From NCBI RefSeq assembly GCF_026914265.1, contig NC_069133.1, forward strand, positions 14,303,375-14,367,374: a stretch of DNA of 64,000 nt, read 5' to 3'. The translations under genes were made by a program, and so were the position numbers. This document shows positions 5,871-61,600 of the stretch, piece after piece. The notes under the pieces were generated by a model. That model was not told the origin of the DNA. It saw nothing but the letters and a program-made list of their open reading frames with translations, and searched no databases. Position 1 is the stretch's first letter. The number at the start of each line of letters is the position of its first letter. Source of the stretch: Mya arenaria. Lineage: Eukaryota > Mollusca > Bivalvia > Myida > Myidae.

Positions 5871-7685
5871 GTAAGTGTTTCGTTTACTGATTAACGGTTC
5901 GGTAGTGTTGATGTTAATTGTAATGTTGTCAAATTATTTCATTTTCAAAGTTTTCTCAGACTTATTTGAATTGCAAATATGATGGTGTAATTATGTGCAT
6001 TTTGAAGGTGTAAAGATAAATTTCATCAGGTGGTATGTTGTAAAGTTTGCAGTTTTCAAGTTAATTAAACAACACTCATGTCATAGATACAGGACAAAAT
6101 TGCATGAAAAAATACGATACAACTAATTGAAACATTACAAGCAAATAGGACATAATACAGATATTTATTTATATTTTCTAACTATAAATACGTTTTAGGC
6201 TATTGAAAATTAATATATAAGCTAAAACAAATGTACATCTATTTGTAGAGGGGAATATAGTGTAACATTCTTAGACTAAATTTATTAACAAAACAATTTT
6301 GTATTATCATTGGGATTGATTTTCATGCTTTCTTTAAATATCAAAACATTAGGATGTTGGTATGATACTTTTCTCTAAAGATATTTTTTTCTGTATTCTG
6401 TAAAAAAAGCTACATACTAGAACATAATGGAATTTATCACCAATACCGGTTTTAGGTTGAACTTATTTTTCCAAGATTAAAGATTTTACGAAATATTTTA
6501 TTAAATGACGTCATCACGCTCCACTTTGCATATTTTTATACTATATTATAAGATTGCACCTAAATCAACAAATCACCCATGGGTTTTATATAAAATAAAT
6601 GTTTCTTTCCGGTAGCAGTGTTAATATAGGATAATAAAGAGGAGAGGAACTTATATAAGTTTGCTGAACTTGTTTTCTTATTTCTTGTTCATTATTGTAC
6701 TTGTACCGAATACAAAAATAACTTTGAACTCAAAACAATATCGAATTATGTAGTATTTTGCATTAATGGTTCTTCTATCTTAACTCGAAATAGCTGTGCA
6801 TGTGCGGTAGCACCATCGCGGACAGTACTTTACAGTGAACCGGAACAAAGACCCCGCAGTCATAATAAGTCATTTCTTAACTGAAGACAATTTCTTAACA
6901 TGTTCATAGTCAAATTAAAGGACTATCAGCTTGTTAGTTTTTAAAGCATGTATATTACATAAGAATAATGAATATAATGTATATTAGATAATAGTTAGTC
7001 ATTATACCATATGATCAGTGAGATACATAACTTATGAAATTAACTTGAGATTAGAAATGACTAAAGATATTTTATGAATGATGGCCCTTTAGTCGATCAT
7101 ATCTTAATGCCACAAAAATGCTATCCATACATAAAGAACTTCATTTGTTTCGATATAAGACTCAATGCATGATTATGGTAACACTTAATGATGGCAACAA
7201 TAAGTTTAAACTTTGTTTGATTACGATATTTTACGGGTTTTTTTACAACCACTCATTCGAACAGAATATTGTAAATCTAAACGTTAATTATTATTTTTCA
7301 ATAGTTCCAACGAGTTCTAGGAAAACAGTAATTTTTCTGACACATTTCTAAATTATTCTTCACAGTTGAGCTCTTGTTTGAACTGTTTACGGTGCTATAT
7401 CATTTAAACATGAACCATGTTTACATTTTACACTAAATAATTTATTCGATGTGTGTTTACGTAAAACGTGAACAAGTCACTTTAATCCGGAAATGTAATA
7501 TCTGAAGGGTTTAACATGACCCTTCGTAGTTCGTTAAATTTGTAAATGTTAGCCATAGCGCTTCCTTGTGCCCGTAATAAAAAGCAACAACAAATTTTAC
7601 AGCCGCACATGGTGAAGTTATTACAGTTATTTCTCCATGAAATATCCTGATTGTAATTATTTACGCATTAAAACTCACTTTTCAG
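5871..7685 (+). other. GRP1 intron 1 with a second CRE/TATA block
   Basis: The intron runs from GTAAGT (5871) to a pyrimidine-rich TTTTCAG acceptor (AG 7684-7685), 1815 bp. Inside it lie a perfect CRE palindrome TGACGTCA (6506-6513) and a second TATATAAG (6652-6659). Both are present at matching positions in all four copies and could form an alternative promoter. A 77-codon open frame at 7118-7351 recurs in the copies only because the DNA is duplicated. Confidence 0.7.
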
Positions 7686-7690
7686 GAACA

Positions 7691-8386
7691 ATGAAGGTCC
7701 TTTTCTTTTTTGGAATCTGCCTTGCACTTTCACTCTCTGTATCCTACGGTCATGTACGTGGCGGTTACTATAGTGGTGGATACGGAAGCGGTGGGTACGG
7801 TGGCGGTGGATACGGTGGCGGTGGACTAGGTGGAGGATACGGTGGCGGTGGATACGGTGGCGGTGGAATTGGTGGCGGTGGATACGGTGGCGGTGGAATT
7901 GGTGGCGGTGGATACGGTGGCGGTGGAATCGGAGGAGGATATGGAGGTGGTGGATACGGTGGCATTGGAGGTTACGGAGGCGGTGGATACGGTGGCATTG
8001 GAGGATACGGTGGCGGTGGATACGGTGGAGGTGGATACGGTGGAGGTGGATACGGTGGCCTTCATGCTGGGTACGGTGGCGGTGGATACGGTGGCGGTGG
8101 ATACGGTGGCGGTGGATACGGTGGCGGTGGAATCGGAGGAGGATATGGAGGCGGTGGATACGGTGGCATTGGAGGTTACGGTGGCGGTGGATACGGTGGC
8201 ATTGGAGGATACGGTGGCGGTGGATACGGTGGCATTGGAGGTTACGGTGGCGGTGGATACGGTGGCATTGGAGGATACGGTGGCGGTGGATACGGTGGTG
8301 GTGGATACGGTGGCATTGGAGGATACGGTGGCGGTGGATACGGTGGAGGTGGATACGGTAAACACGGTGGACACGGTCACTTTTGA
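7691..8386 (+). CDS. GRP1: secreted Gly/Tyr-rich repeat protein
   Basis: The product is 231 aa. Residues 1-20 (MKVLFFFGICLALSLSVSYG) form a signal peptide, probably cut before HVRGG. The rest is nearly all Gly and Tyr: GYGGG pentapeptides (15-bp DNA units), GGGIG modules, GYGGIGGYGGG 11-mers (33-bp units) and one LHAGYGG interruption. The tail GKHGGHGHF is His-rich and could bind metal. There are no Cys residues after the signal peptide. I chose the ATG at 7691 because the splice acceptor ends at 7685, so the in-frame ATG at 7637 lies in the intron. The composition fits a shell, periostracum, byssus, cuticle or glue protein. Short Gly/Tyr-rich antimicrobial peptides of nematodes are another analogy. 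No family is assigned. Promoter, donor, acceptor, frame and poly(A) signal all look whole. Confidence 0.9.
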   Translation: MKVLFFFGICLALSLSVSYGHVRGGYYSGGYGSGGYGGGGYGGGGLGGGYGGGGYGGGGIGGGGYGGGGIGGGGYGGGGIGGGYGGGGYGGIGGYGGGGYGGIGGYGGGGYGGGGYGGGGYGGLHAGYGGGGYGGGGYGGGGYGGGGIGGGYGGGGYGGIGGYGGGGYGGIGGYGGGGYGGIGGYGGGGYGGIGGYGGGGYGGGGYGGIGGYGGGGYGGGGYGKHGGHGHF

Positions 8387-8562
8387 CATGGCGGAGGATA
8401 CATGAGCTGATCTTGGACCGGTTCGGCCGGATATGGTGTTTGTTACGGTCGTCATTATCAACATTGTTTCGAAAACATATCTGGAGCGTGTATTTGATTG
8501 ATGACGATAATTGTTTCAGATAAATTCATTGATCCTTTCTGCTTATAGATCTTAGAATATGT

Positions 8563-8568
8563 AATAAA
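8563..8568 (+). terminator. GRP1 poly(A) signal AATAAA
   Basis: A canonical AATAAA lies 177 nt after the stop codon and is kept in all four copies, followed by T-rich and GT-containing DNA. The 3' UTR is therefore about 200 nt. Confidence 0.75.
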
Positions 8569-8974
8569 ATATGTTAACATATGTGAGTTACATAAAACAA
8601 AGAACTTAAACTTAACGTTTTATTGTTTATGAATGTCCGCTATATTTTTGTAATTTGGGTAATTTTCTTTCATCATTTCTGATAAAAAATGCTTGCTCGT
8701 AATTTTTTTTTAAATAAATTTAATATACACTATGAATCGTCTTGTAGTTTATTTGTGGGTGGGTAACAGTAAACAGCATTGCCTAAAACATCAAACTGCA
8801 GTGCAAGACAATATAGAGGTCCTTCCACATTTGGGAACTGCGTTGATGAAGGAATCGCAAAGAGTCACTGTCCTACAGAACATCAAAAAATGTTAAATGA
8901 ATCAATATGGTCGATCGTCCTGCATCACCATCATGATCTAAATGTACTCATTCTGTGTATCTAATGAGATTGAA

Positions 8975-9245
8975 ATAAACATCATGTGTCACTGTTTCAA
9001 CGAGTTAAAGAATAGTATGACGAGTTAGTTTCACTGTTATATAGACCTACATTCATTTCCAAATCAAAGGTAAGCGCGCACAGGCCTGGAACATCATTTC
9101 GACGACGTCAAATCTGAAATGACGTTACGCTCACATACAAATTGGTGCGCATTTTATGCATATAATAAATGGAAACATGTTTACTTCAGTGGATGATTGC
9201 AATATATTTTCCGTAAGATCATCAAAATGAAATGACACTAGCTTT
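8975..9245. repeat. Old dispersed repeat, downstream copy (unit 1)
   Basis: This is the paralogue of the repeat at 1845-2135. It shares TCACTGTTTCAA, the GCGCGCAC motif, AAATGACGTTACG and GCAATATATTT in the same order. The same copy follows the other genes. Confidence 0.5.
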
Positions 9246-9339
9246 TGGTGCTCATTCGGTGAACTATATTGCAAATCTTACACTGCAACAACAATTATCC
9301 GCAACGTTACTCTTACCAGCATTACCATCAAGGTCTTCA

Positions 9340-9610
9340 TTCGATTTTATATGATGATAAAGATGACATTATTAAAGAAGATGTTTTGATGAAAATGTAG
9401 ATTTTGCTTACGATGATAATGATGGTCGTCATCCTAACGGTCATTATTGCATTGGACATCATCACAATCAACATCATAGCAAATGTTGTGATAAGATAAT
9501 AAGATTCGTCATCGTGAGGATGATAATAAAACTGATGATGGTCAGTAGTAGGAAAAGGACGATTATTGGTATGATGGTGATCATCATTATCTCAATTATC
9601 GTACGAAAAA
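9340..9610. repeat. GAT/ATC-rich imperfect repeat tract
   Basis: The tract is a low-complexity run of GATGAT and ATCATC trinucleotides on both strands, able to fold on itself. It recurs after each GRP gene (about 28460-28730, 40310-40570, 56830-57090). Every frame is broken often, so it is not coding. Confidence 0.7.
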
Positions 9611-11420
9611 AGCATCATCTATGTTAAATACATTCATCTTGCCATTTTATCAATGTGAAAAAAACGTACTATTGGCTTGGGAGAAGGATTTGTGATAGGT
9701 CCCAGCTCATGCTTATGAAGAAAATAGTATTCTTTTCTTTGAAATGATAAATGCGTGAACGCCATCTCCAATTGTAAGTACAAGGGTCTACTGTGTGGTA
9801 TGGTGCAAGATTATAGGATCAAATAGGTTAACCTTAAAGGTCCATGTTTGGTAGTCCATATTTAACATTAAATTATATTTTGGTTCATTCCGCAATGACT
9901 TTATTTTCTTTATTTGTCAGTTATTAATAGCAAGTGATCCGATTAGCTACATCAATCATAGATCCAATAAAGACCAATATTAAATACCGGCCTTGTACAA
10001 TGGCTGTTTCGATAAAATGGTATACTACATTACCAATATCGTTAAAACTTGGTAATGCATTATAAACATCTGGCTGCTACATCACAAAATCTCAATGTCA
10101 GTCTGTTGTGATATTTGGCCTGATTTATCAGTTTCTTTAGGTGGTATATTTAAATGGCTGATGTTCGACCAAGTCTGAAACAATAGGTAGTGTAAGACAA
10201 TTAAATCTCTGGAAGTGCCGAATGCGCCAATGCTTTGATTTTATCGATGTTTTGTTTACAAAATAATATTGTCTTGAAACTTACAACTTAAAAACCTTTG
10301 GTTCAAGTGGCAACCTCAGAATTTCAAATGTGCAATAATATCTCAAGATTTGACTGACTCATTATTCAATCTTTGATAAAGTTCCAGTAGACACAACACT
10401 TGAACACATTGAAAGCCATTCATCAACTTTAAAAAGTTAGTGAATAATGATTTGTCTGGAAAGTGTTGTAGACGCTTTCAACATTAAAACAACAGTGAAA
10501 TGTGCTACCAAAGGTTTCTTAAACTTTAGTTTTAGGCTTACTTCAAGTATGAATACTTATAATCTTTCAAAATCAAAATTTACAATGTCGCCATTACTAC
10601 ATATTTAGTACATATTTGAATGTTGTAGTTTAAACATCGTTTCACCATTCGATGCTGCGACAAATAACTGTCAAGAGTGTTATCAAACGTTACTTAAACT
10701 AAACATATTTGTAGGCCAATTTCAATCGAAAAATTACCCTATTAACTGTTGCTCCACACTTAATTTCACGAAACTTACTCCGGCTGGTTTTACTTTTGCG
10801 CCAAAATAACACGTGGCTACTCAAGGGCGGAGCTAGTTGGTCAACTAAATGCTAACACGAAAAAAGTTAGATATCGTTTTTCACTAAACATCAGTAACCA
10901 TTTATAAAGGTTTACAAAACGTGGAAATTTCAACCTGTAATATATCGTGTATGTAAGGAGAAACCAGCTGTCCGGGCTGTCCAAAACCGCGAGATTTCCA
11001 AGAGATTAATGTTTAAAGACAAATGTGCATTGCGTGAACAGGCGAACTTATAAATCCTTAAAGTAAAACCACTAAAACAGTATAGGGATTCCAGAATTAG
11101 ACAGTTCCCTTAAGAACATTTAACTAGTTTGTATAAATGAAAGGTGAAAAACAATAGTTTACGTTGTTGTTATTGTCTAAATGCGCTTTGAGCGATAATC
11201 AATGATTACCTGTGCTTTATAATCAAATATGTCAAACTTAATCCGTTTCTGTCTTTGATATTGTGCAAACACTTACCCATTAAAACATTCCCTATATATC
11301 TGCTTGTGTTCAAACAGTATGTTTATCAGCCCACTGATGATTCACTTCAAGTCGTGCGTCACTCTGTGTCCACGCCTGCATCTGTTTTCGTTATTTCATG
11401 ATGTGCAATTTAACACTATT

Positions 11421-12463
11421 ATAATGAGATAATCCAGTAAGGTAATCAGATTTCACTGCCTTGCCTTTGTAAAGAAGACGCGGGAAATCCAAGCTTGGTT
11501 GATTGTCGTGCACATTCGAAGTCTACAGAGATGTTTGTTTTACTTTGTTTTAGAAAACCTGATTGTTTTACTTGGAATCTGATGTTCTGATGGTTAATAT
11601 TGATTTGCATTTGTAGTCTTTTGTGTTTGTCTTGGATTAGCAATGGATTGGAATGATCATTATTTCATTCAGCTGCATTTATTTAGTTTTGTCATGTATT
11701 TTTACGACATCAGCAGATTTTGTAATTAAACCGAGAATGGCAGTTCCGTGATATTCTTTTAGCCTCTTTCCATATAATAATATATGTGGGTTTGGTCACT
11801 GATGATAACATGCATGGAAAACAGAAGTCACCATGGGTGTACGAGGGAGTAGGAGTGTTTGATTCCATAAATCAGTAAGTTATATGTCAATAATTTGTTT
11901 TATGATGTACTGTGTTGTTGTAATCGCTTGTATTATATGTGTGTTTTATATGCTTTAGCCATTTAATTTAATCTGCCACTGCACACGATTAAAACATACC
12001 TGGTATAAGATATAAGACTATTTACGATGTTAACTTATAAACATATTATTATTCATTATCTTATGATTGTTTATATTCATATTTTCATGACGCTCCGATA
12101 TTATATCTACATTCGATAATGTTGAATATAGAGATATTGAAGAACACTGTGTTTGTTGTTTGAATTTTAACTGCTACATATGGTAACCTGGACATATAGA
12201 CCCACCCTCGCTTAGGAATTACAAATGTATTCCCATCTTAAAACGTCAAATGACATAGAAAGCAACAATGGTCTCATTGATCTTAATTATCACACAGTTT
12301 CCCTGCTTAAAACATCACGTGATAGCCCACGTGGGAATAACAAACGTGCTAAAGTGCTGACGAGTTACCTGACGATAAAGAAATAGGAGAGAGTTGCTGA
12401 CCATATAGACAATGAAGGAAAAAAAGTTTTGAAATAAAAGATTTTATGCTAACTTTATATGAT
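11421..12463. other. Segment X, left part (interrupted by LINE-A)
   Basis: This matches 30970-32013 closely. The first 0.4 kb of X and a little flank (30531-30969 in the other copy) are missing here: DNA up to 11420 equals the DNA before 30531 and DNA from 11421 equals the DNA from 30970. A CACCATGGG start-like site at about 11830 is followed by a stop within ten codons, so no gene is supported. Confidence 0.65.
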
Positions 12464-12685
12464 ATATGACGTAGCAGGATGGCGTTGGGTGGTCACGGAT
12501 TTTATGCACTCCAAGTGAAAACTTTTTAAAATTAATATGAAATGGATATTTTGTAAAATAAAGAGTATATACATGGACTATTAGTTGCGCAAAACTGTTC
12601 TGTACTTTTGTCTTGGAGAAAAATACTGTTTTTTGTGTGTACGAGTGCATTACATTTTTCTCGTGCTTGTTTTCAATGGTACAAA

Positions 12686-13978
12686 ATGGCGGCTAACTTT
12701 TCCCAGGTAGATATTTCTCGGGACGATGATGTGGGTGAGTGGGAGTTTACGGCCAAGAATACTAGTAAACGGAAGCGCCATACTACTAGTGCTAGTTCGG
12801 TTCTTACAGGCGAGGACTTTGAAAATGCAAGTAATAATACCAAACTATCAATGATTTTTGAAGAAATATTGAATTTGAAAGGTGATCAAGCCAGTACACG
12901 TGAACTAATATCAATATCCAATCAGTACATGAAAATTGCCTGTGATAAGACTAACGGTATTTCCTCGGTCATTAACCAGCAGTCAACACTTCTCAAAACG
13001 CTCTCGTATAAATCCATTGATATCGAGGCACGTGGCAGACGAAATAATCTTATATTTCGAGGGATCAAGGAGACCCGTTATGAAAACAGTGCGGTGCTTT
13101 TAATGGAGTTTTTAGCTCACACGCTGCAAATTGATACAACTGGAGTAGTGATTACTCGTGCACATCGATTAGGCCCCATTAAGATGGGTCAAAGCTATAC
13201 TAGGCCAATTATTGCAAACTTTATGATCTTTAATGATGTAGAACATATTATGTCCAATGCAAAAACACTTAAACATTGCCCTGGTTATTCCATTGATCGA
13301 GATATGCCAAAGGAAATTGTTGACGCCAGGAAACGCTTATGGGGGCAGTTTAAGAACGCCAAGAAAGATAACCCCGGGTCCAGCGTGCGTATCGTTTATC
13401 CGGCCAAACTCCTCTGTGGTAACCGTGTAATTCAAGATGAGTTTCCCGACTGGCACTCTGTACTTAATCAGTCCAGGTTGGTTGATTTTCCCATACTGGA
13501 CACACATGGAAACTGTGACGTTACGTCGTACAACTTTTTGTCGCCAATAGACAGGACATCAGTTTCTCATTCTAGAAACCCACCCCAAACTGCGCTTGAT
13601 GTTATGCCAGATAACGTTGTGGCGGCAGAGAGTGTACCGTCTGCTGATGCCTCAGGACATACAGCCCAAATTACACCTGATGTAATCTTTCCAACGGCAC
13701 GATCCAAAAGTCACGAGAAAGACATGGTGACCGACTTCCCGCAGCCACGTGATATTGTTGTACCATCACTCTTTAAACATAAGGAAACACGTGACGCCCC
13801 TAAACAAAATGGTACAAAACAAAAAACTGTTCAGTCTAAAACCCAGCCGGGTAAGGATGGTTCACATACTCCTAGATCAACGACCAGACGTAAGCCGGGT
13901 CCACGTCGGACACAGTCAGTATCAGCGCGCCGGGTACAAACATTAACTCTGCCCCTGGTGGTGAATCTGTGGCATTAG
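12686..13978 (+). CDS. LINE-A ORF1 protein (L1-ORF1-like RNA-binding)
   Basis: The product is 430 aa from the ATG in ACAAAATGGCGG. An in-frame ATG at 12608 would add 26 residues in a weaker context. The middle carries the signature of L1-type ORF1 proteins: a helical segment, then EARGRRNNLIFRGI, then RAHRLG and RPIIANFMIFND, as in the RRM-like core that binds LINE RNA. The C-terminal 150 residues are basic and rich in Pro, Ser and Thr, with no CCHC knuckle seen. It would coat the element's RNA in the cytoplasm. ORF2 follows after about 20 nt in another frame. The frame is whole. Confidence 0.82.
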   Translation: MAANFSQVDISRDDDVGEWEFTAKNTSKRKRHTTSASSVLTGEDFENASNNTKLSMIFEEILNLKGDQASTRELISISNQYMKIACDKTNGISSVINQQSTLLKTLSYKSIDIEARGRRNNLIFRGIKETRYENSAVLLMEFLAHTLQIDTTGVVITRAHRLGPIKMGQSYTRPIIANFMIFNDVEHIMSNAKTLKHCPGYSIDRDMPKEIVDARKRLWGQFKNAKKDNPGSSVRIVYPAKLLCGNRVIQDEFPDWHSVLNQSRLVDFPILDTHGNCDVTSYNFLSPIDRTSVSHSRNPPQTALDVMPDNVVAAESVPSADASGHTAQITPDVIFPTARSKSHEKDMVTDFPQPRDIVVPSLFKHKETRDAPKQNGTKQKTVQSKTQPGKDGSHTPRSTTRRKPGPRRTQSVSARRVQTLTLPLVVNLWH

Positions 13979-13998
13979 GAGGTGCTGACTCTGGCTAG

Positions 13999-16900
13999 GA
14001 ATGGCAGGAGAAGGTTAACCTTAAAATAGCCGTCCTTAATGTACAGTGTTTAGTGTCTAAATATTGTAACAAACTGCATTGTCCTGAAATTATTTCCATA
14101 TTTGATAAAAATGACATAGTTATGCTTACTGAGACATGGTCTAATGAATCTATTGATTTAAATGTACAAAACTTTCAGCATTTTTGTTTACATAGGAAAA
14201 AAAGTAAAAACTCTAAACGTGATTCCGGTGGAATAATTATTTATGTAAAAGATACATATGTCAATGATAAAAGTTTGTTTTTCCAAAGTGAAGATGACAT
14301 TTTATGGATACGGCTTGACGGCAATATTTTTTTGCTAGATAATGATTTATTTATCGGTTTATGTTATGTTGTACCAGAGAGTAGCGGAAGATTTAACTTA
14401 CAGTTAGAAAATGTTTTTGACAGATTGTTAAACTCTGTAGCATTTATTCACAATTATACGGATGGTCAGTGTAATATATTACTGTCTGGTGATTTTAACA
14501 GCCGTACATCGGATAACTCCGATTGTATTGACTTTGACCTAAATAATGACCTGCTTATACTACCTGACGATTATACGGTTGACATATCCCGTCCTAGATT
14601 CTATCAAGATAAAGGTCACACCAATAGTAACGGTACTGCTTTTATAGATTTTTGTAAACAAACAGGTTTACGCATAGTGAATGGTCGTTGTGGCGAGGAC
14701 GCGGGGATTGGTAAATTTACTTTTGTAGGGTCGAGAGGATGCAGTTTAGTGGATTATGTTTTAGTTTCGGAATCCGTGTTTGACTGCATTACTTCATTTA
14801 CCGTTCATGATCCAAATTCCTTATCTGATCATTGTTTAATTGAGTATGCATTTGAAAATACCGTTAACATTGACGCTTTATCACGTGATCAGACCGTAGA
14901 AAATGATACGTATGAAGAGATTAATTCTAGATATAAGTGGAAAGTTAATCTTACGAATAATTATATAAATGGAATTAGCACCGATGTATTTGTTGATGAA
15001 CTGAATGCACTGACTCTTTTTACAAATAATTGTTCGACGGGTAGTGACATAGATTCTAGTTTATCACAGTTTTCCAAGCTTATGAACAATGTTACTGATG
15101 GTCTTTTTAAAACTTCTATTTATCATAATGCTAACAACTTAAATAAAACACAGCCTGGAAATAATCCTTGGTTTACTGAAGAATGCTGTCAAAAAAGAAG
15201 CATATTTTTAACATTTTTAAACAAATATCGCAATTGTCCTTCAAATGAAAATAGATTGCTTCTTGTTAAAGCTCGGTCGGAATACAAATGTACTATACAA
15301 TCCTGTAAGAAAACATACCTCGCCGACAGAACAAACACTTTAGAGCAATATAGACATAATAACGCTAAACTTTACTGGAAAATGTTGAAACAGTCAGCAC
15401 ATGTAAAACCTCCAGACATACCATTGTCCTCTTTTGAAGTGTATTTTAAAGCAGTTAACAATCCTGGCGACCCATTTTTCCAGGCTGATGAGGATATCAT
15501 GTATTTTAATGAACGATTCGTACGCGACGAATTTCAAGTTATGTTTTTGGAATTAGATGCTGAAATTAGTATAGCAGAGATAAATCAAGGTATTAAACAA
15601 TTAAAACTCAGTAAAAGTGCTGGTCCAGATAATTATATAAATGAATATTTTATACATGGAAACACCGTGTTAAACCCTTTTTTACACTCACTATTTAATG
15701 TTATTTTTAAAACTGGACATTTTCCAGAAACATGGTCTGACGGTTATATAGTGCCACTACATAAGAAAGGATCTATTCATAACCCGGAAAACTACAGGGG
15801 TATTACTTTATTGAGTGTTTTGGGGAAACTTTTTACCCGCATTCTAAATAACAGATTGACATCATGGGCTGAAAATTACAATGTTTACATCGAGGCTCAG
15901 GCCGGTTTTCGCAGTGGAATGGGCACTACTGATAATATATTCGCCCTACATGGCATAATTACACATATGATCAATCAGGGTAAAACATTGTATTGTAGTT
16001 TCATAAATTTTAGCAAAGCTTTTGATTATGTTGAACGCAATAATCTTTGGTCTAAACTGATAAAACTTGGTATTCGCGGTAAAATGATGATAATTCTTAA
16101 AAGTATGTACTCAAGTGTTAAATCTCGTGTTAGGTTCAACAACAAGTTAAGCGAAGAGTTTTATTGCTTTTTAAGCGTTCGTCAAGGTGAATCGTTGTCT
16201 CCTTTCTTGTTTTCAATGTTTCTCAATGATATTGAAGAGCATCTAGTACTGAATGGTTTTAATGGTATCGAGATGTACATGACAAAAATGTTTATTTTAT
16301 TATACGCTGACGACATTGTTGTTTTTTCTGATTCGCCCGAAGGCTTGCAAAACGGTTTAGATCATTTATATGAGTATTGTCGTAGATGGAAACTCAAAAT
16401 AAATGTCCAGAAAACCAAAATAATTGTTTTCAGAAAGGGTGGCATTTTGCCAAGGAATCTACAGTTTTCATTCAATGGGGAAATTCTTGAAATAGTCAGG
16501 TCTCTTTCTTATTTAGGTGTTGTCTTTTCCTCGGGTGGTTCTTTTAGTAAAACAGAAGTAACTCTAGCTGGCAAAGCACAAAAAGCTATTTTTAAACTTA
16601 ATAAATATTTATACAATTTTCCTAACGTGGGCGTGAAACACCGACTAGACCTTTTTGACAAGCTGATTGTACCTATTTTGAATTACTCTAGCGAGGTTTG
16701 GGGTTTTCATAAGGCAAATACTATCGAACGTATCCATACACAGTATTGCAAACGCATTCTTCAGGTAAAACGCTGTTCTCAGAATGATTTTGTTTACGGT
16801 GTACTCGGTCGATTTGATTTAGCATACAATAGATATATTAGAATTGTTAAGTACTGGCTAAAGATTCTAACTAGTGACGACCTGAAGTATTGTAAAATTG

Positions 16901-17502
16901 TCTACGAAGTTTTAAAAACTGATGCTGATTTGCTTCCAAATAAGGTGTCGTGGGTAACATTACTTCAACATTTATTGTCATCATTAGGATTTTATGAAGT
17001 TTGGGTAGCTCAGGGTGTTGGTGATGCAAATGTTTTTGTAAGAATTTTTAAACAACGTTTGTGTGATACAAATGTACAAAACTGGAACGCGAGAATTGAA
17101 AATTCACCACGCAGCACTTTCTTTAAATCCATTGTTTCCTTTGGCTTTCAGTATTATTTAAAATGTAACGTATGTAATAGTTTAACCATAGCAATGTCTA
17201 GGTTACTTCTTTCATCTCATAATCTGTCTATTGAAACAGGTCGATGGCATCGTCCAAACTGTATTCCACGTCAAGACAGAAAGTGTATTACATGCAATAA
17301 ATTGGAAGACGAATATCACTTTGTGATAGAATGTAATTTATATACTGAACTCCGTAAAAGATACATTGCAAAATATTATTGGTCCAATCCAAGTATGTAT
17401 AAACTTAAACAACTCTTCGAAAGTACTAATATTACTAAACTCAGAAAGTTATGCACATACGTAGATAAGGCTTTTAAATTTAGAAAAAGTTTACAAATAT
17501 AA
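13999..17502 (+). CDS. LINE-A ORF2: endonuclease-reverse transcriptase, catalytic Asp changed
   Basis: The frame is open from 13999 to 17502. The apurinic-like endonuclease starts at LKIAVLNVQCLVSK and keeps LTETW (14125-14139), GDFN (14488-14499) and SDH (14824-14832). Reverse transcriptase motifs include NYRGITLLSVLGKLF, QAGFRSGMGTTDN, VRQGESLSPFLF and YADD (16303-16314). Motif A reads FINFSKAFD where the family has F-x-D-x-x-KAFD: the first metal-binding Asp is Asn (AAT, 16006-16008), so polymerase activity is doubtful. The C-terminus has a CxxC...H...C finger (CITCNKLEDEYHF). No in-frame ATG precedes the endonuclease domain; a GTG lies at 14053 and the first ATG at 14122, inside the domain. 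Translation would need a non-AUG start or reinitiation, or this copy lost its ATG. Confidence 0.85.
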   Translation, partial: EWQEKVNLKIAVLNVQCLVSKYCNKLHCPEIISIFDKNDIVMLTETWSNESIDLNVQNFQHFCLHRKKSKNSKRDSGGIIIYVKDTYVNDKSLFFQSEDDILWIRLDGNIFLLDNDLFIGLCYVVPESSGRFNLQLENVFDRLLNSVAFIHNYTDGQCNILLSGDFNSRTSDNSDCIDFDLNNDLLILPDDYTVDISRPRFYQDKGHTNSNGTAFIDFCKQTGLRIVNGRCGEDAGIGKFTFVGSRGCSLVDYVLVSESVFDCITSFTVHDPNSLSDHCLIEYAFENTVNIDALSRDQTVENDTYEEINSRYKWKVNLTNNYINGISTDVFVDELNALTLFTNNCSTGSDIDSSLSQFSKLMNNVTDGLFKTSIYHNANNLNKTQPGNNPWFTEECCQKRSIFLTFLNKYRNCPSNENRLLLVKARSEYKCTIQSCKKTYLADRTNTLEQYRHNNAKLYWKMLKQSAHVKPPDIPLSSFEVYFKAVNNPGDPFFQADEDIMYFNERFVRDEFQVMFLELDAEISIAEINQGIKQLKLSKSAGPDNYINEYFIHGNTVLNPFLHSLFNVIFKTGHFPETWSDGYIVPLHKKGSIHNPENYRGITLLSVLGKLFTRILNNRLTSWAENYNVYIEAQAGFRSGMGTTDNIFALHGIITHMINQGKTLYCSFINFSKAFDYVERNNLWSKLIKLGIRGKMMIILKSMYSSVKSRVRFNNKLSEEFYCFLSVRQGESLSPFLFSMFLNDIEEHLVLNGFNGIEMYMTKMFILLYADDIVVFSDSPEGLQNGLDHLYEYCRRWKLKINVQKTKIIVFRKGGILPRNLQFSFNGEILEIVRSLSYLGVVFSSGGSFSKTEVTLAGKAQKAIFKLNKYLYNFPNVGVKHRLDLFDKLIVPILNYSSEVWGFHKANTIERIHTQYCKRILQVKRCSQNDFVYGVLGRFDLAYNRYIRIVKYWLKILTSDDLKYCKIVYEVLKTDADLLPNKVSWVTLLQHLLSSLGFYEVWVAQGVGDANVFVRIFKQRLCDTNVQNWNARIENSPRSTFFKSIVSFGFQYYLKCNVCNSLTIAMSRLLLSSHNLSIETGRWHRPNCIPRQDRKCITCNKLEDEYHFVIECNLYTELRKRYIAKYYWSNPSMYKLKQLFESTNITKLRKLCTYVDKAFKFRKSLQI

Positions 17503-22415: not shown

Positions 22416-22425
22416 CATCACAGTG

Positions 22426-26832: not shown

Positions 26833-26837
26833 GAACA

Positions 26838-27500: not shown

Positions 27501-27676
27501 CATGGCGGAGGATACATGAGCTGATCTTGTACCGGTTCGGCCGGATATGGTGTTTGTTACGGTCGTCATAATCAACATTGTTTCGAAAACATATCTGGAG
27601 CGTGTATTTGATTGATGACGATAATTGTTTCAGATAAATTCATTGATCCTTTCTGCTTATAGATCTTAGAATATGT

Positions 27677-27682
27677 AATAAA
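27677..27682 (+). terminator. GRP2 poly(A) signal AATAAA
   Basis: It has the same position relative to the stop codon as in GRP1. Confidence 0.75.
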
Positions 27683-27699
27683 ATATGTTAACATATGTG

Positions 27700-30586
27700 A
27701 GTTACATAAAACAAAGAACTTAAACTTAACGTTTTATTGTTTATGAATGTCCGCTATATTTTTGTAATTTGGGTAATTTTCTTTCATCATTTCTGATAAA
27801 AAATGCTTGCTCGTAATTTTTTTTTAAATAAATTTAATACACACTATGAATCGTCTTGTAGTTTATTTGTGGGTGGGTAACAGTAAACAGCATTGCCTAA
27901 AACATCAAACTGCAGTGCAAGACAATATAGAGGTCCTTCCACATTTGGGAACTGCGTTGATGAAGGAATCGCAAAGAGTCACTGTCCTACAGAACATCAG
28001 AAATGTTAAATGAATCAATATGGTCGATCGTCCTGCATCACCATCATGATCTAAATGTACTCATTCTGTGTATCTAATGAGATTGAAATAAACATCATGT
28101 GTCACTGTTTCAACGAGTTAAAGAATAGTATGACGAGTTAGTTTCACTGTTATATAGACCTACATTCATTTCCAAATCAAAGGTAAGCGCGCACAGGCCT
28201 GGAACATCATTTCGACGACGTCAAATCTGAAATGACGTTACGCTCACATACAAATTGGTGCGCATTTTATGCATATAATAAATGGAAACATGTTTACTTC
28301 AGTGGATGATTGCAATATATTTTCCGTAAGATCATCAAAATGAAATGACACTAGCTTTTGGTGCTCATTCGGTGAACTATATTGCAAATCTTACACTGCA
28401 ACAACAATTATCCGCAACGTTACTCTTACCAGCATTACCATCAAGGTCTTCATTCGATTTTATATGATGATAAAGATGACATTATTAAAGAAGATGTTTT
28501 GATGAAAATGTAGATTTTGCTTACGATGATAATGATGGTCGTCATCCTAACGGTCATTATTGCATTGGACATCATCACAATCAACATCATAGCAAATGTT
28601 GTGATAAGATAATAAGATTCGTCATCGTGAGGATGATAATAAAACTGATGATGGTCAGTAGTAGGAAAAGGACGATTATTGGTTTGATGGTGATCATCAT
28701 TATCTCAATTATCGTACGAAAAAGCATCATCTATGTAAAATACATTCATCTTGCCATTTTATCAATGTGAAAAAAACGTACTATTGGCTTGGGAGAAGTT
28801 GTGATAGGTCCCAGCTCATGCTTATGAAGAAAATAGTATTCTTTTCTTTGAAATGATAAATGCGTGAACGCCATCTCCAATTGTAAGTACAAGGGTCTAC
28901 TGTGTGGTATGGTACAAGATTATAGGATCAAATAGGTTAACCTCAAAGGTCCATGTTTGGTAGTCCATATTTAACATTAAATTATATTTTGGTTCATTCC
29001 GCAATGACTTTATTTTCTTTATTTGTCAGTTATTAATAGCAAGTGATCCGATTAGCTACATCAATCATAGATCCAATAAAGACCAATATTAAATACCGGC
29101 CTTGTACAATGGCTGTTTCGATAAAATGGTATACCACATTACCAATATCGTTAAAACTTGGTAATGCATTATAAACATCTGGCTGCTACATCACAAAATC
29201 TCAATGTCAGTCTGTTGTGATATTTGGCCTGATTTATCAGTTTCTTTAGGTGGTATATTTAAATGGCTGATGTTCGACCAAGTCTGAAACAATAGGTAGT
29301 GTAAGACAATTAAATCTCTGGAAGTGCCGAATGCGCCAATGCTTTGATTTTATCGATGTTTTGTTTACAAAATAATATTGTCTTGAAACTTACAACTTAA
29401 AAACCTTTGGTTCAAGTGGCAACCTCAGAATTTCAAATGTGCAATAATATCTCAAGATTTGACTGACTCATTATTCAATCTTTGATAAAGTTCCAGTAGA
29501 CACAACACTTGAACACATTGAAAGCCATTCATCAACTTTAAAAAGTTAGTGAATAATGATTTGTCTGGAAAGTGTTGTAGACGCTTTCAACATTAAAACA
29601 ACAGTGAAATGTGCTACCAAAGGTTTCTTAAACTTTAGTTTTAGGCTTACTTCAAGTATGAATACTTATAATCTTTCAAAATCAAAATTTACAATGTCGC
29701 CATTACTACATATTTAGTACATATTTGAATGTTGTAGTTTAAACATCGTTTCACCATTCGATGCTGCGACAAATAACTGTCAAGAGTGTTATCAAACGTT
29801 ACTTAAACTAAACATATTTGTAGGCCAATTTCAATCGAAAAATTACCCTATTAACTGTTGCTCCACACTTAATTTCACGAAACTTACTCCGGCTGGTTTT
29901 ACTTTTGCGCCAAAATAACACGTGGCTACTCAAGGGCGGAGCTAGTTGGTCAACTAAATGCTAACACGAAAAAAGTTAGATATCGTTTTTCACTAAACAT
30001 CAGTAACCATTTATAAAGGTTTACAAAACATGGAAATTTCAACCTGTAATATATCGTGTATGTAAGGAGAAACCAGCTGTCCGGGCTGTCCAAAACCGCG
30101 AGATTTCCAAGAGATTAATGTTTAAAGACAAATGTGCATTGCGTGAACAGGCGAACTTATAAATCCTTAAAGTAAAACCACTAAAACAGTATAGGGATTC
30201 CAGAATTAGACAGTTCCCTTAAGAACATTTAACTAGTTTGTATAAATGACAGGTTAAAAAACAATAGTTTACGTTGTTGTTATTGTCTAAATGCGCTTTG
30301 AGCGATAATCAATGATTACCTGTGCTTTATAATCAAATATGTCAAACTTAATCCGTTTCTGTCTTTGATATTGTGCAAACACTTACCCATTAAAACATTC
30401 CCTATATATCTGCTTGTGTTCAAACAGTATGTTTATCAGCCCACTGATGATTCACTTCAAGTCGTGCGTCACTCTGTGTCCACGCCTGCATCTGTTTTCG
30501 TTATTTCATGATGTGCAATTTAACACTATTATTTATAGCTTTATTGAGAACAGGCATCGACCCAATCCCTCTCGTCGTCATTTTTG
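27700..30586. other. 3' flank of GRP2, non-coding
   Basis: This is nearly identical to 8590-11420, including the dispersed repeat with AAATGACGTTACG (about 28230) and the GAT/ATC tract (28460-28730). No gene is seen. Confidence 0.6.
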
Positions 30587-32442
30587 AACAGGTTTGTTTT
30601 CAACCCTGTTCAGTGTAGCCACAAACTCGACACTCACAACAGAAAATTCCTATTAATAGTAACAAATGTCGCCAGCCGATTTACCACCAAACTTATAGTT
30701 TGAGAAAGTGCAGACTATATTAATTGCAAGCTATGTTTCAAATAACCAAGATAGATTTGACAAAGCAAGAAGCAATCATAACGCAATATCTGTTTAAATA
30801 ATTTAATCTGTTGAACTTGAAAGATAACATTAAAGTAGTATCGCTGCACCAAAAGATGAATGAACATCGAAACGTAAACAAAGAATTACTATCCACTCTA
30901 AGCGCATCATTAAATCACTTGACGCAATGATGAAGCCAAGTGAATTTACAGTCGAAGAGATATAATCCTATAATGAGATAATCCAGTAAGGTAATCAGAT
31001 TTCACTGCCTTGCCTTTGTAAAGAAGACGCGGGAAATCCAAGCTTGGTTGATTGTCGTGCACATTCGAAGTCTACAGAGATGTTTATTTTACTTTGTTTT
31101 AGAAAACCTGATTGTTTTACTTGGAATCTGATGTTCTGATGGTTAATATTGATTTGCATTTGTAGTCTTTTGTGTTTGTCTTGGATTAGCAATGGATTGG
31201 AATGATCATTATTTCATTCAGCTGCATTTATTTAGTTTTGTCATGTATTTTTACGACATCAGCAGATTTTGTAATTAAACCGAGAATGGCAGTTCCGTGA
31301 TATTCTTTTAGCCTCTTTCCATATAATAATATATGTGGGTTTGGTCACTGATGATAACATGCATGGAAAACAGAAGTCACCATGGGTGTACGAGGGAGTA
31401 GGAGTGTTTGATTCCATAAATCAGTAAGTTATATGTCAATAATTTGTTTTATGATGTACTGTGTTGTTGTAATCGCTTGTATTATATGTGTGTTTTATAT
31501 GCTTTAGCCATTTAATTTAATCTGCCACTGCACACGATTAAAACATACCTGGTATAAGATATAAGACTATTTACGATGTTAACTTATAAACATATTATTA
31601 TTCATTATCTTATGATTGTTTATATTCATATTTTCATGACGCTCCGATATTATATCTACATTCGATAATGTTGAATATAGAGATATTGAAGAACACTGTG
31701 TTTGTTGTTTGAATTTTAACTGCTACATATGGTAACCTGGACATATAGACCCACCCTCGCTTAGGAATTACAAATGTATTCCCATCTTAAAACGTCGAAT
31801 GACATAGAAAGCAACAATGGTCTCATTGATCTTAATTATCACACAGTTTCCCTGCTTAAAACATCACGTGATAGCCCACGTGGGAATAACAAACGTGCTA
31901 AAGTGCTGACGAGTTACCTGACGATAAAGAAATAGGAGAGAGTTGCTGACCATATAGACAATGAAGGAATAAAAAGTTTTGAAATAAAAGATTTTATGCT
32001 AACTTTATATGATGTATATATATCTACAATTGTTTGAAATCAATTCTTTAATTTTTCATCATTTTAATTAAGAAACCATTTCTCTTTAATCTGTTTTATT
32101 TTCGAAGTTGTTTTGTGAATAACATAGGCAAACTCTTTCTAATGAGTAAAGTTAAGTATATATATACTTATATGTTACACCATATGATGGAGTTCTGCTC
32201 GGATTGGTTACGTTCTCCATCATTGTTTGCCTTCTTACACAGCCATATTAATTTTATTGTCAATAAAATATTATTTTTTCATTTACTATCATGCTTCAAT
32301 AAACCTGGGGCGGCCCCTATGGTTGTTTTACACGCGGACTCTTAGATTCACTGTGCAACATATCAGCACCTTATTATCGTAAATCATAATGGTGAAAACC
32401 CGTATAAAACCCTGTTCATACAGCGCTATCAGCGCTTTGATT
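30587..32442. repeat. Segment X, uninterrupted copy (1.86 kb)
   Basis: X interrupts unit sequence that is continuous at 1768, 48413 and 63316 (TCATTTT then ACATGTG). The left end folds (GAACAGG TTTGTTTTCAAC CCTGTTC) and the right end carries GAAAACCC..CCCTGTTC, so the ends are loosely inverted: GAACAGGTTTGTTTTC against GAACAGGGTTTTATAC. It ends with a hairpin (AGCGCT ATC AGCGCT). X has no long open frame. It may be a non-autonomous DNA element, or unit DNA deleted from the other units; the former is favoured because three units share the same clean junction. Confidence 0.5.
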
Positions 32443-33073
32443 ACATGTGTTATAACATGAAATCAATGGGTTTATATCATATGATTACCGGTGTGATATA
32501 GAGATTTATCAGTGAAATAACATTGATATTTCACTGTTTCAAAAAGTGAAAATATCAAAATGATATTTTTAAATGTTTTAAATATCTAAGGCGCTTCCAG
32601 CTCAAAATAAAACGTCAGCGCGCACAGAGCTGAATCACGCATTCAACGACATCATCTCTGAAATGACGTTACGTGCGCATACAAATTGGCTCATTTTTCT
32701 AAACAAGTGTAATTAAAAGACTTCAATCTACAATTTAGGCATACACTAAAAATAATCTTTGTTTCAGTGCAATATATTTCACCTTATGATCACCAAAAGT
32801 GATTTGCCAGGAATGCCACTTCCACATAACTTGTCGTGTGAATGAAAAACCTCATTGAAAGTCCTTGTATACTCAAAACCCCTTAAGCAAACTTAACAGC
32901 AAACCATTTATCACTCATCATCTAATATGCTTTGCATTTCGAACGTTTTTTATCGTCCTTTACTGTGGCAATGTTTCTTACTTTAAATCTGCACTATCAC
33001 AGATATGTCTTTTGACAACTTTTTTTATTGTTGGTCCTGGAATGAGCCAATGTTTGTGTTAACAACCAACAAC

Positions 33074-33235
33074 CAATGCTATTAGACTGCTGACAAAAGG
33101 TCAGATCGCATATTTTTCATATTTCTATTCGTAAATAAATATTGAATGACTTAAAGCAGTCACGCATGAAACATCATTTGTGAACATAAATATGAAAACC
33201 TGCGATCTCATCTTTTGTCAGCATTCTTATATCAA
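33074..33235. mobile_element. 165-bp fold-back MITE (GRP3 unit)
   Basis: This is the duplicate of the element at 19013-19178, with the same inverted ends. Confidence 0.75.
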
Positions 33236-34269
33236 GCATTTTCGCAAAACATTGCTTGTTTCAAGATAAGAAAAAAAAGTTGACAATCAGTGAGAGTGGT
33301 GCAGCTTTTGAGAAACTTGTTGACAGAACACACCTACAGCCTAACACGCCATGCGTATGGGTCAACGTCCTTATAACTAAATCCTTTGCCTTGAGGTTTT
33401 ATTGTTAACAGTTGGCCCTGATATCAAGAAAGTACTTTTGTCAATTGATAACACCCATTTTAAAAACTGTGTTAATAGTGTTACGCATGGTTTTGTTTTG
33501 CTGTAAAGTTCAATGCAAAAAAAATACAATGAAACAATTAGCAATGCATAATAACTATATTTGAGCATTCACTAGCCTTTATAAGGCTTTGATTCTCGTA
33601 ATGTATCATTGCTGGGGTTAGAGTTTTAGTGGTTTATGCTTGCCGCAAGTATCAATTAAATAACACGTGCAATTCCCGTAAACTTTGTTTGTAGATTTGG
33701 CTTGTTTAAACCAAACGAACATTTCAATGCCAAAACTTGCAATTTATGCGTTTTATATTAAATCATGCATGTTAGTGAAGTGAATAAAGTAAGACAATAT
33801 TACTTTTGACGTCCTTTAAACATTTTCTTTTCACACGATTAAAATTATAAACACTATGTCATTAGCCAAAGCGAAAGTCAACCATTTGAATCGTTCATAT
33901 CAACGTGACTAGGCTGTTTAAAGCCTCTAGATATCGAACAATTATAGTAACTTATTTCTGTCAGTTCGTGTTTTCGACGCTTTCTCTCAACGGCGTTCGG
34001 CGCTTGTTTACAATTTCGGCACGGCAACAAGGCGTGTTTTCATATTGCCTCATGGTGTGTATTTTTTCCCTTTCACCATAGACCTTATAACCGAGAGGGC
34101 CATTAAAAAATAACAGGACATTGTTGAAATCAGTCTCTATAGACATTTGACAAATTAGAAAATAATGAAAGGCGAATATATACAGACTTATTAAAAATAT
34201 TTTCGAATGGCATGCGAGCGAAGCGTTTCGGCATCTGAATCGAATCTTTGATCTATGCATGGAACTCGA

Positions 34270-34875
34270 TTATTCGCACAAGTTGTCAAACATCCACGGA
34301 AGTTTGCCGAAAATAATTACATGTTGTCTTCCGTGCTTAGAGCTTAGTCAACAATAAGTACATTGTTGTCGTCCGTGCAAAGAACGATCAGTTCATGATA
34401 TATTATATGCACGGAACGTTTACGATCATAAGTACATGTTGTCTTCCAAGTGTAAAAATACGACACCAGTAGGTACATGATATCTTCCATGCACGCAGCT
34501 TTGTCGATGCTTAGGACATATATGGGTCCATGCATGGAATTATGATTCAGTACATGCTGTCTTCCATGCATGACTTCCAGTCATGGAATATTGTCAACGA
34601 TCAGTACATGTTATCGTCAATGCGATTATTAGTTAATGTTATTTTCAATGCATCGAACTTTATCGATAATAAGAATATCTTATCTTCCATGTATGGAACA
34701 TGGATGATTAGTATATGATAAGTTACATTCATGGAATTTTGTCGTTGGTAGGATGATCTAACAAACAAACAAAAGTGTCGATAGTAGGATTATCTTCCAT
34801 GCATGGAACCTTGTCGATGATAAGTACATGTCGTCTTCCATGCATAAAACGTTGTCGATGATTATAACAAGTATA
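34270..34875 (+). repeat. Degenerate minisatellite upstream of GRP3
   Basis: The array is homologous to 20210-20815, with the same unit order. Confidence 0.8.
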
Positions 34876-36232
34876 TAGTAAAGTTGACCTTGACCTTCAA
34901 ACGCACATTCGAAATGCTATTGACCTTTAAACACATACATTAAATCGATCCTGGAATCCACTTAGTTATATCCAGGAAGTTAACTTCATCCATGGGACAA
35001 TTCTACAGATTGAAAAGTGGAAAATGATATAATTTGTTCTAAGATATTAATGATATTCTCCTTTTATGAATATTCATCAATAATGATTACCTTAAAACTT
35101 ATTAAAAAGATAAGTTATACGTCCTATGCATTCTTGTGTATCAATAAAAGGTAGTATTTTTATGACAGGTACTTCAAGGATAAAGGAAAATTTACCTTAG
35201 TCATGACTTGTTTAATATTTTGCATGAAAGTAACCATTGTAAGACATACGCTGAAACAAGAAACAATAACTTAAAAAAGTAGGATAATCTAGTTGCTATA
35301 TTAAAGACACAAATAAAATATGTCTCTCAAGTGCCTTTTTCCTTACTTATGTATAATTATCTCTTTTCGCTGTCCTTTTTCACCGAGCCATATTTAGAAG
35401 GGAAATACGAGAATTCTCAGAAAAAAGATTTTTTGAAAAAAAACTTTTTAAATAGGACTTCAACACTTATACACGAAATGAAGAGTGCATTTGAAGACAA
35501 TATAGGTAACTGTTGAGGATTTGAGTTCGTTTCAATCAATAACTGTCCAATATATTACATCAATCTACTTGCTTTAAAGAGCCTTTTTTATTTGATCTTA
35601 AAGTCGTTAAAGAACCAAGCAAGACGACTTTAAAGGCACAAACATTATCCGATATAGTTAGTTGATTCAGGGATAGACCGCATAATAAAACCCAAAAGAA
35701 AACATGTGTTTCTATTTAATTGATTCATTCGCTTGATATATACAAATACATTCGTTTGTTCAATAGACAAGTTATAGCATAAAAGTCATCAACACATAAA
35801 TCCGTTCACCTATTACAACGTAACAAATTTGGTTTGATAAAACAAACCGTACTAAATGATTATCAAATGTAGTTTAAAGTGAAGACACATCGCATAACTC
35901 TTAGTAACACACAGACATTACTTTCATAAAAAGATACAACCTAAAAAAACAATAAAACCACAGAAAATAGGCTTGTTGTCAAAATCACTTGTTAAAAGCT
36001 ATCAGATACAGTCAATTACAGGGTCACACTAGAGCCAGTCTAAATGTTAAAAATGAATCGTTTTCGTGGGTGAATAGAAATGTATTTAATGTGGTAGAGA
36101 CTAGTAATGTATCCACTTAGTCTCGCGATAAATATTTCGAACGATGAAACTGCTTATATTAATGTCGTTGAGATTCCTCCATTTAACTTACACAACTTCT
36201 TGAAAATTAAAATGTTTCATTCAAATTTTTAA

Positions 36233-36414
36233 AAGAAGAAACGTTATTTCTACAAATTAACGAGAGATGGATGAATGCCTATTAAGGCAAACAATTGGTG
36301 ATTGATTACCTTGTGCGGCTAAGTAGAGGACAACACTTTCTACCGTAGCCCATTAACGAGAACAGTTGCAAGGTCCACGGCATTATATAAGACTTCTTCT
36401 TAAGTTGCAAACAC
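36233..36414 (+). promoter_or_regulatory. GRP3 core promoter with 63-bp loss
   Basis: The proximal block and TATATAAG (36384-36391) are kept. Just upstream, 63 bp present in GRP2 (22172-22234) and, in diverged form, in GRP1 and GRP4 are missing at about 36232. The lost part contains TCCATATGGTATTGATCAT and the start of the AGTCCTCAATCAAAGAGC block. Confidence 0.75.
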
Positions 36415-36453
36415 CACAGTGTCCCCTAATACTACGGTGATACCTGCAAACTA
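36415..36453 (+). other. GRP3 exon 1 with lost splice donor
   Basis: The exon matches the other copies, but the donor reads CTA|GAAAGTG instead of CTA|GTAAGTG (T to A at 36455). Normal splicing of exon 1 to exon 2 is not expected. Confidence 0.8.
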
Positions 36454-38654
36454 GAAAGTGTTTCGTTTACTAATTAAAGTTTCGGTGATGTTGGTGTTAA
36501 TTGTAATGTTGTCAAATTATTTCATTTTCAAAGTTTTCTCAGACTTGTTTGTATTGCAAATATGATGGGGTAGTTATGTGCATTTTGAAGGCGTTGTAAA
36601 GTTTGCAGTTTTCAAGTTAATTAAACAACACTCATGTCATAGATACAGGACAAAATTGCATGAAAAAATACGATACAACTAATTCAAACATTACAAACAA
36701 ATAGGACATAATACAGATATTTATTTATATTTCCTAACTATTAATACGTTTTAGGTTATTGAAAATTAATATATCAGTTAAAACAAATGTACATCTATTT
36801 GTAGAGGGGAATATAGTGTAACATTCTTAGAAAAATAAATTACTAAACACTATGAATCGTCTTGTAGTTTATTTGTGGGTAGGTAACAGTAAACAGCATT
36901 GCCTAAAACATCAAACTGCAGTGCAAGACAATATAGAGGTTTGAATTGCAAATATGATAGTTTAGTTATGTACATTTTGAAGGGGTAAAGACAGATTTCA
37001 TCAGGTGGTATGTTGAAAATGTTTTCAGTTTTCAAGTTAATTAAACAACACTTATGTCATAGATACAGGATAAAATTGCATGAAAAAATACGATACAACT
37101 AATTCAAACATTACAAACAAATAGGACATAATACAGATATTTATTTATATTTTCTAACTATTAATACGTTTTAGGTTATTGAAAATTAATATATCATTTA
37201 AAACAAATGTACATCTATTTGTAGAGGGGAATATAGTGTAACATTCTTAGACTAAATTTATTAACAAAACAATTTTGTATTATCATTGGTATTATTTTCA
37301 TGCTTTCTTTAAATATCAAGACATTAGGATGTTGGTATGATACTTTTCTCTAAATGAATAATGTTTTCTGTATTCTGTAAAAAAGGCTACATTCTAGAAC
37401 ACAATGTAATTATCACCAATACCGGGTTTAGGTTGAACTTATTTTTTCAAGATTAAAGATTTTACGAAATATTTTATTAAATGACGTCATCACGCTCCAC
37501 TTGACATATTTTAATACTATGTTATAAGATTGTACCTTAATCAACAAATCACCCATGGGTTATATATAAAATAAATGTTTCTTTCCGGTAGCAGTGTTAA
37601 TTTAGGATAATAAAGAGGAGAGGAACTTATATAAGTTTGCTGAACTTGTTTTCCTATTCCTTGTTCATTATTGTACTTGTACCGAATACAAAAATAACTC
37701 CAAACAATATCGAATTATGTAGTATTTTGCATTAATGGTTCTTCTATCTTAACTCGAAATAGCTGTGCATGTGCGGTAGCACCATCGCGGACCGTACTTT
37801 ACAGTGAACCGGAACAAAGACCCCGCAGTCATAATAAGTCATTTCTTAACTGAAGACAATTTCTTAACATGTTCATAGTCAAATTAAAGGACTATCAGGT
37901 TGTTAGTTTTTAAAGCATGTTTATTACATAGGAATAATGAATATAATGTATATTAGATAATAGTTAGTCATTATATCATATGATCAGTGAGATACATAAC
38001 TTATGAAATTAACTTGAGATTAGAAATGACTAAAGATATTTTATGAATGATGGCCCTTTAGTCGATCATATCTTAATGCCACAAAAATGCTATCCATACA
38101 TAAAGAACTTCATTTGTTTCGATATAAGTCTTAATGCATGATTATGGTAACACTTAATGATGGCAACAATAAGTTTAAACTTTGTTTGATTACGATATTT
38201 TACGGTTTTTTTTACAACCACTCATTCGAACAGAATATTGTAAATCTAAACCTTAATTATTATTTTTTAATAGTTCCAACGAGTTCTAGGAAAACAGTAA
38301 TTTTTCTGACACATTTCTAAATTATTCTTCTCAGTTGAGCTCTTGTTTAAACTGTTTACGGTGTTATATCATTTAAACATGAACCATGTTTACATTTTAC
38401 ACTAAATAATTTATTCGATGTGTGTTTACGTAAAACGTGAACAAGTCACTTTAATCCGGAAATGTAATATCTGAAGGGTTTAACATGACCCTTCGTAGTT
38501 CGTTAAATTTGCAAATGTTAGCCCTAGCGATTCCTTGTGCCCGTAATAAAAAACAACAACAAATTTTACAGCCGCACATGGTGAAGTTACTACAGTTATT
38601 TCTCCATGATATATCTTGATTGTAATTATTTACGCATTAAAACTCACTTTTCAG
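36454..38654 (+). other. GRP3 intron 1 with internal duplication
   Basis: It carries the same 113-bp 3'-flank insert (36828-36940) and intron repeat as GRP2. CRE lies at 37482-37489 and TATATAAG at 37628-37635. Up to about 37.80 kb it matches GRP2; from about 37.89 kb it matches GRP4 (for example ATCAGGTTGTTAG rather than ATCAGCTTGTTAG). The acceptor TTTTCAG (AG 38653-38654) is whole. Confidence 0.75.
36828..36940 (+). repeat. Misplaced copy of GRP 3' flank inside GRP3 intron
   Basis: This is the same piece and the same junctions as 25007-25119, so the event predates the duplication of this block. Confidence 0.85.
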
Positions 38655-38659
38655 GAACA

Positions 38660-55127: not shown

Positions 55128-55132
55128 GAACA

Positions 55133-58726: not shown

Positions 58727-58760
<34 letters not shown>

Positions 58761-61585: not shown

Positions 61586-61600
61586 CCTTAAAATACACTA

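Follow-up and report, generated by a model that had tools for sequence, protein, structure and literature searches.

Hybrid genes of the globin anti-Lepore type arise by unequal crossing-over within a tandem cluster. The CYP11B2/CYP11B1 chimeras and the KIR hybrids, in the parts of the literature drawn on here, are likewise hybrid genes produced by unequal crossing-over, and the mechanism, misaligned recombination between tandem paralogues, is already known. For the stickleback spiggin chimeras, the available part of PMC4989455 invokes both crossing-over and gene conversion.

Here we describe a fused gene, GRP2, in the bivalve Mya arenaria. The window, the whole 64,000-nucleotide stretch analysed, is 14303375-14367374 of the chromosome NC_069133.1 and contains four near-identical glycine-rich protein genes, GRP1 to GRP4, all on the + strand and each made up of a non-coding exon 1, intron 1 and a single coding exon whose product is rich in Gly and Tyr and has a hydrophobic N terminus. 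Comparison with the genome covered one assembly (1.216 Gb, 18 contigs) and revealed a second GRP array, B, on the same chromosome 0.73 Mb away, with three genes (B1, B2 and B3, at 15045212, 15056742 and 15067780) versus the four in the window. GRP2 is a fusion of its two neighbours, joined within about 200 bp of intron 1. We think it probable, at about 0.62, that GRP2 arose by out-of-register crossing-over in intron 1, adding one unit to the array. The locus resembles the globin, CYP11B and KIR hybrids in its same-direction paralogues, a switch within homologous DNA, an extra copy and a probable restriction to one haplotype; it differs in gene family and animal, in the LINE (long interspersed nuclear element) within exon 1 of the fused gene, and in the stepped identity of the duplicated block. 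Judging from the same part of PMC4989455, spiggin offers a further parallel, a tandem array of secreted structural-protein genes with fusions of neighbours and LINEs nearby, whereas the LINEs at GRP are confined to one copy and do not mark the ends of the duplication.

The switch inside GRP2 intron 1

In a four-way alignment, sites that divide two against two paired GRP2 with GRP3 in 21 of 27 cases up to GRP1 position 6725, and GRP2 with GRP1 in six. Four of those six, together with two of the 21, lie at GRP2 24463-24583, inside LINE-B, and are non-homologous; without the LINE-B sites, 19 of 21 pair GRP2 with GRP3, the exceptions being GRP2 25195 and 25691. From GRP1 6930, GRP2 26077 and GRP3 37899 onward, every site (106/106; 51 in the repetitive coding exon and 55 elsewhere) pairs GRP2 with GRP1. 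GRP3-type sites end at GRP2 25879, or at 25971 when a change private to GRP1, which B1 lacks, is included. A maximum-chi-square split of 24588-26830 was best at 25971-26077, where 43 of 53 and 17 of 19 sites fall as expected on the two sides; none of 2000 shuffles reached that quality. Trees of seven genes (the four in the window and B1 to B3) were built for both sides of the junction. To its left GRP2 grouped with GRP3 and B2 (support 100), and to its right GRP2 grouped with GRP1 (support 90). The original prediction that GRP2 is chimeric, with its switch in intron 1, is thus upheld by site counts and by differing trees on either side. The stretch TTTGAACTCAAAAC near 6722 is, as predicted, common to GRP1 and GRP4, and GRP2 and GRP3 are shortened there by the same 7 bases. 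A GRP3-to-GRP4 switch had also been proposed at 37.89 kb; the boundary exists, but it is GRP2 that departs from GRP3 there, and GRP3 itself need not switch. That both switches share one intron position was correct, since the doubled unit is bounded there (6.8-25.9 kb and 26.0-37.8 kb).

To the right of the junction GRP2 is very close to its left-hand neighbour. Over the 753 columns covering the right part of intron 1, 2 differences separate GRP1 from GRP2, versus 9 between GRP1 and B1 and 7 between GRP2 and B1; in the 3' flank the difference is 6 of 1426 columns, with each gene 11 from B1. GRP2 keeps intron 1, with GT at the donor and AG at the acceptor, and so is not a retrocopy. Two repeats are found in this intron. 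A dispersed repeat of about 220 bp (window 26013-26236), with at least 23 matches elsewhere in the genome at 72-81%, starts within the exchange interval. An inner intron-1 repeat of about 390 bp is common to GRP2 (24726-25448) and GRP3 (36547-37271) and is lacking from GRP1, B1 and B2.

The doubled block and the second array

The original prediction of a tandem block of about 11.8 kb was right in that the block is present twice, as copies A1 and A2. A1 includes LINE-A and LINE-B and is about 11.5 kb without them, as is the corresponding unit of the second array (about 11.5 kb); a stretch of about 436 bp is absent from copy 1 only. Outside the coding exon, A1 and A2 differ at 77 of 10507 sites. 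How such a product might have formed can be set out as follows. Two chromosome copies would pair out of register within the same-direction array, and a crossover in the near-identical 200 bp or so of intron 1 would cut the left partner in a GRP3-type gene and the right partner in GRP1. The resulting order would be GRP1, a fusion with a GRP3-type 5' end and a GRP1-type coding exon, and GRP3, with one unit of about 11.8 kb added. The partners would probably be different homologues, so that the copies would be unlike from the outset, as alleles are. LINE-A and LINE-B are confined to copy 1.

The second array bears on what the unduplicated state may have been. A comparison of 124 kb around the window (including 5 kb of N) with 100 kb around the second array gave colinear long matches, at 98.7-99.2% outside the array middle. 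Four further 2-kb samples were searched for partners, and all four had one 0.67-0.70 Mb away: 14.45/13.78 Mb at 100%, 14.65/13.96 Mb in pieces of 98% and 94%, 14.18/14.87 Mb at 95%, and 14.05/14.75 Mb at 100%. The doubled segment consists of two copies in the same direction, 670204 and 707435 bp long (13.776-14.446 and 14.446-15.154 Mb), which meet at a 100-N gap, 14446280-14446379. Immediately right of the gap, the first base has its partner at 13776076 (100% over 995 bp), and the sequence to the left of the gap pairs with 15150816-15153809 (99%), to the last base with a stretch ending at 15153814. Because homology runs up to the gap on both sides, the second array is probably the other haplotype, kept in the assembly and having one gene fewer; the pattern is how two overlapping haplotype contigs, both retained, would look. 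A gap between copies is one mark of false duplication, and read depth another, according to the available part of PMC9516828. The heterotype false duplications in that part of the source are similar in having two diverged copies on one scaffold with an assembly gap between them, a likeness which applies to the 0.7-Mb pair and not to GRP1 and GRP2.

The two arrays might instead be a genuine tandem segmental duplication of 0.7 Mb within one chromosome, as would suit two copies on one scaffold in the same direction. We regard this as improbable. Both copies of the segment stop at the 100-N gap, the mark of false duplication just cited, and one sample beyond each of the other ends had no partner near 99% among the matches listed: the sample at 13.770 Mb had just two 279-bp neighbours at 91%, and that at 15.156 Mb had partners at 90-91% only. 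At the window's left edge there adjoin 5000 N (14298375-14303374), where the second array has near-identical local repeats.

Within the presumed allelic pair, B1 is the partner of GRP1 and B3 the partner of GRP4. B2 is a mosaic, with a GRP3-like 5' part, a B3-like intron from 51974 (add 15005000 for the chromosome position), and a coding exon and 3' flank nearest GRP1 and GRP2; the 3' flank is 25 of 1426 columns from GRP1/GRP2 and 46 from GRP3. Base errors aside, B3 (from 15068713) has a stop after 26 codons, and the B2 frame (15057675-15058376) has 233 amino acids (aa) and ends ahead of the usual KHGGHGHF tail.

For the GRP1 unit, private differences over 6266 columns outside the coding exon number 10 in A1, 10 in A2 and 37 in B; the A1-A2 depth is about 0.43 of the A-B depth, the window copies being nearer each other than B. 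If the animal is diploid, as presumed, three versions of this unit require at least three physical copies, assembly errors aside. These counts bear on whether the extra unit is an assembly artefact, in which reads from the two haplotypes were joined across the near-identical intron 1. A misjoin could easily fall in that intron, and the assembly does contain the 670/707-kb doubled segment with its 100-N gap. Such a misjoin, however, predicts that the 3' part of GRP2 equals B1, and GRP2 is nearer GRP1 than B1 (2 versus 7 differences in the 753 intron columns); three different versions of the GRP1 unit exist, and the window has no N (its base counts sum to 64000). A haplotype misjoin is accordingly held to be very improbable as the source of GRP2.

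Crossing-over weighed against overwriting

Several observations weigh against a crossing-over origin. Within the GRP3-type part of GRP2 there is a G1-like patch of about 90 bp, and because of this short patch, substituting B1 for GRP1 shifted the best split to 25604-25625 (38/43 and 18/27 sites). The left-hand tree joins GRP3 and B2 without GRP2 (support 90). The A1-A2 differences are stepped, 30 of 8040 (0.37%) to the left of A1 21170/A2 35232 and 47 of 2467 (1.9%) to the right, and none of 300 shuffles gave an equally strong step. Between 21.8 and 25.9 kb, A1, A2 and B lie at roughly equal distances from one another (15, 11 and 14 private differences in 1325; Fisher p 0.004 versus the left part), a result not expected from a single event on one chromosome. 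B2 is not a plain allele of GRP3, being 3-5% different downstream; its layout is like that of GRP2, with a 3' part more distant from GRP1, and the gene whose partner is missing from B may be GRP3 or GRP2. The plain three-gene state expected before duplication is not seen in B.

It follows that the original prediction, read as a single duplication on one uniform chromosome, was too simple, given that the 5' part of GRP2 branches outside GRP3 and B2. When 6850-26000, with the LINEs taken out, was compared with 26000-37850, identity dropped at both ends of the block, as had been foreseen, but it also stepped inside the block, and the two copies are unevenly alike.

The stepped identity fits recombination between unlike homologues, and it also fits an older GRP2 that was later overwritten. 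By the latter account GRP2 is an older array gene, perhaps the partner of B2, in which about 8-9 kb was replaced with GRP1 sequence by later conversion or double exchange, so that the intron-1 switch would be one end of the tract and the step near 21170/35232 the other. The two identity levels and their change point speak for such overwriting, as do the branching of the GRP2 5' part outside GRP3 and B2 and the short patches, which suggest that conversion occurs in the array. B2 likewise combines a GRP3-like 5' part with a GRP1-like 3' part, and this resemblance to GRP2 lowers the odds of crossing-over and raises those of conversion. A tract of 8-9 kb is, however, long for conversion, and the gene numbers, four versus three, demand a gain or a loss in any case. 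The step is also partly regional, since B too is more divergent rightward: A-B divergence is 0.75% on the left and 2.49, 4.27 and 2.04% in three sub-blocks from 19.4 kb on. We consider overwriting unlikely on balance, though a serious possibility, and continue to favour crossing-over between homologues.

Two further candidates were rejected. Conversion from GRP4 is unlikely to be the source of the step, there being no single donor among the 49 GRP2/GRP3 differences up to 25949, of which 24 are private to GRP2, 14 are private to GRP3, 9 have both states elsewhere and 2 neither. It is also unlikely that B2 is a recent deletion product of GRP2 and GRP3, given its distances of 25 and 46 of 1426 columns from their 3' flanks, as against 11 between GRP1 and B1.

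B2 exits its GRP3-like 5' part at 51951-51974 (chromosome 15056951-15056974), some 30-260 alignment columns beyond the GRP2 switch. The pairing of a GRP3-type promoter with a GRP1-like exon may have arisen twice, in GRP2 and in B2. The broader idea, that exchanges recur in intron 1 and repeatedly attach GRP3-type 5' ends to other coding exons, we rate as doubtful.

The array genes and the meaning of the fusion

Coordinates are collected in Table 1; splice sites and intron lengths were taken from sequence alone.

Table 1. Features of the GRP array, in window positions.
Feature	Positions	Strand	Intron 1 (bp)	Protein (aa)	Remarks
Exchange interval, GRP2 intron 1	25880..26076	+			GRP3-type to left, GRP1-type to right
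GRP1	5801..8386	+	1815	231	TATA 5801; exon 1 to 5870; intron 5871-7685; coding sequence (CDS) 7691-8386, open
GRP2 (chimera)	22388..27500	+	2200	220	TATA 22388; donor GT 24633; CDS 26838-27500, open
GRP3	36384..39331	+	2201	223 (frame-shifted)	TATA 36384; donor position 36454; CDS from 38660
GRP4	52558..55843	+	2500	236	TATA 52558; donor GT 52628; CDS 55133-55843, open
Block copy 1 (A1)	6840..25950	+			GRP1 intron-1 right part, GRP1 coding exon, spacer, GRP2 promoter, intron-1 left part
Block copy 2 (A2)	26000..37800	+			Same unit without LINEs, about 11.8 kb; ends in GRP3 intron 1
LINE-A	12464..17944	+			456-aa open reading frame (ORF) without Pfam match; 1149-aa ORF (endonuclease, reverse transcriptase)
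LINE-B	22426..24587	+			528-aa ORF with zf-RVT; inserted in GRP2 exon 1

The middle gene had been predicted to combine a GRP3-type promoter with a GRP1-type coding exon. Its coding side is GRP1-type, but its promoter is interrupted by LINE-B, which starts 38 bp past the start of the TATA box and parts the promoter from most of exon 1, which resumes at about 24591. LINE-B is flanked by the direct repeat CATCACAGTG at 22416 and 24591 and gave no reverse-transcriptase match; LINE-A has TATGAT as a direct repeat on either side. Neither occurs in block copy 2 or the second array. The coding exon and splice donor of GRP2 are intact; its normal promoter activity would have been lost, and a working promoter-swapped gene is doubtful. 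GRP3 has GA, not GT, at its splice donor, and a 13-bp deletion in its coding exon (versus GRP4) leads to a Val/Asp/Thr-rich frame, with a stop in the old frame. Barring base errors in the assembly, GRP3 looks decayed.

Two further elements lie in the window. That at 42414-48086 matches reverse transcriptase, with a second, weak match (RNase-H-like) just below cut-off, and the second array lacks it. At 58737-61820 a stretch with a LINE ORF on the reverse strand is also lacking from the second array, where about 315 other bases stand in its place. An Rfam scan at the gathering threshold gave 0 matches, as did the mollusc haemocyanin domain PF14830, for which the control was also positive in 0 of 14 genomes.

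The Gly/Tyr repeats and hydrophobic N terminus were seen by eye in the predicted GRP translations. In these features the GRP proteins presumably resemble shematrins, molluscan glycine-rich shell proteins, a likeness by description. In contrast to shematrins, GRP1, the single GRP protein tested, matched no Pfam family. More distant GRP-like matches (68-80%) occur on the same chromosome at 14.286, 14.384 and 7.80-7.87 Mb and on contig C4 at 69.52-69.61 Mb, so the family is larger than the window. Among the literature matches listed, nothing was found on this array or fusion.

Gene counts in this region of the assembly are probably inflated by the unmerged 0.7-Mb haplotype pair. Whatever the gene number, two genes per haplotype look structurally sound, GRP1 and GRP4 in one and B1 and B2 (its tail missing) in the other. 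For a repetitive structural-protein family the case is well resolved, in that one assembly holds a fused gene, both its parents, the exchange interval and, probably, a second haplotype that is one gene short.

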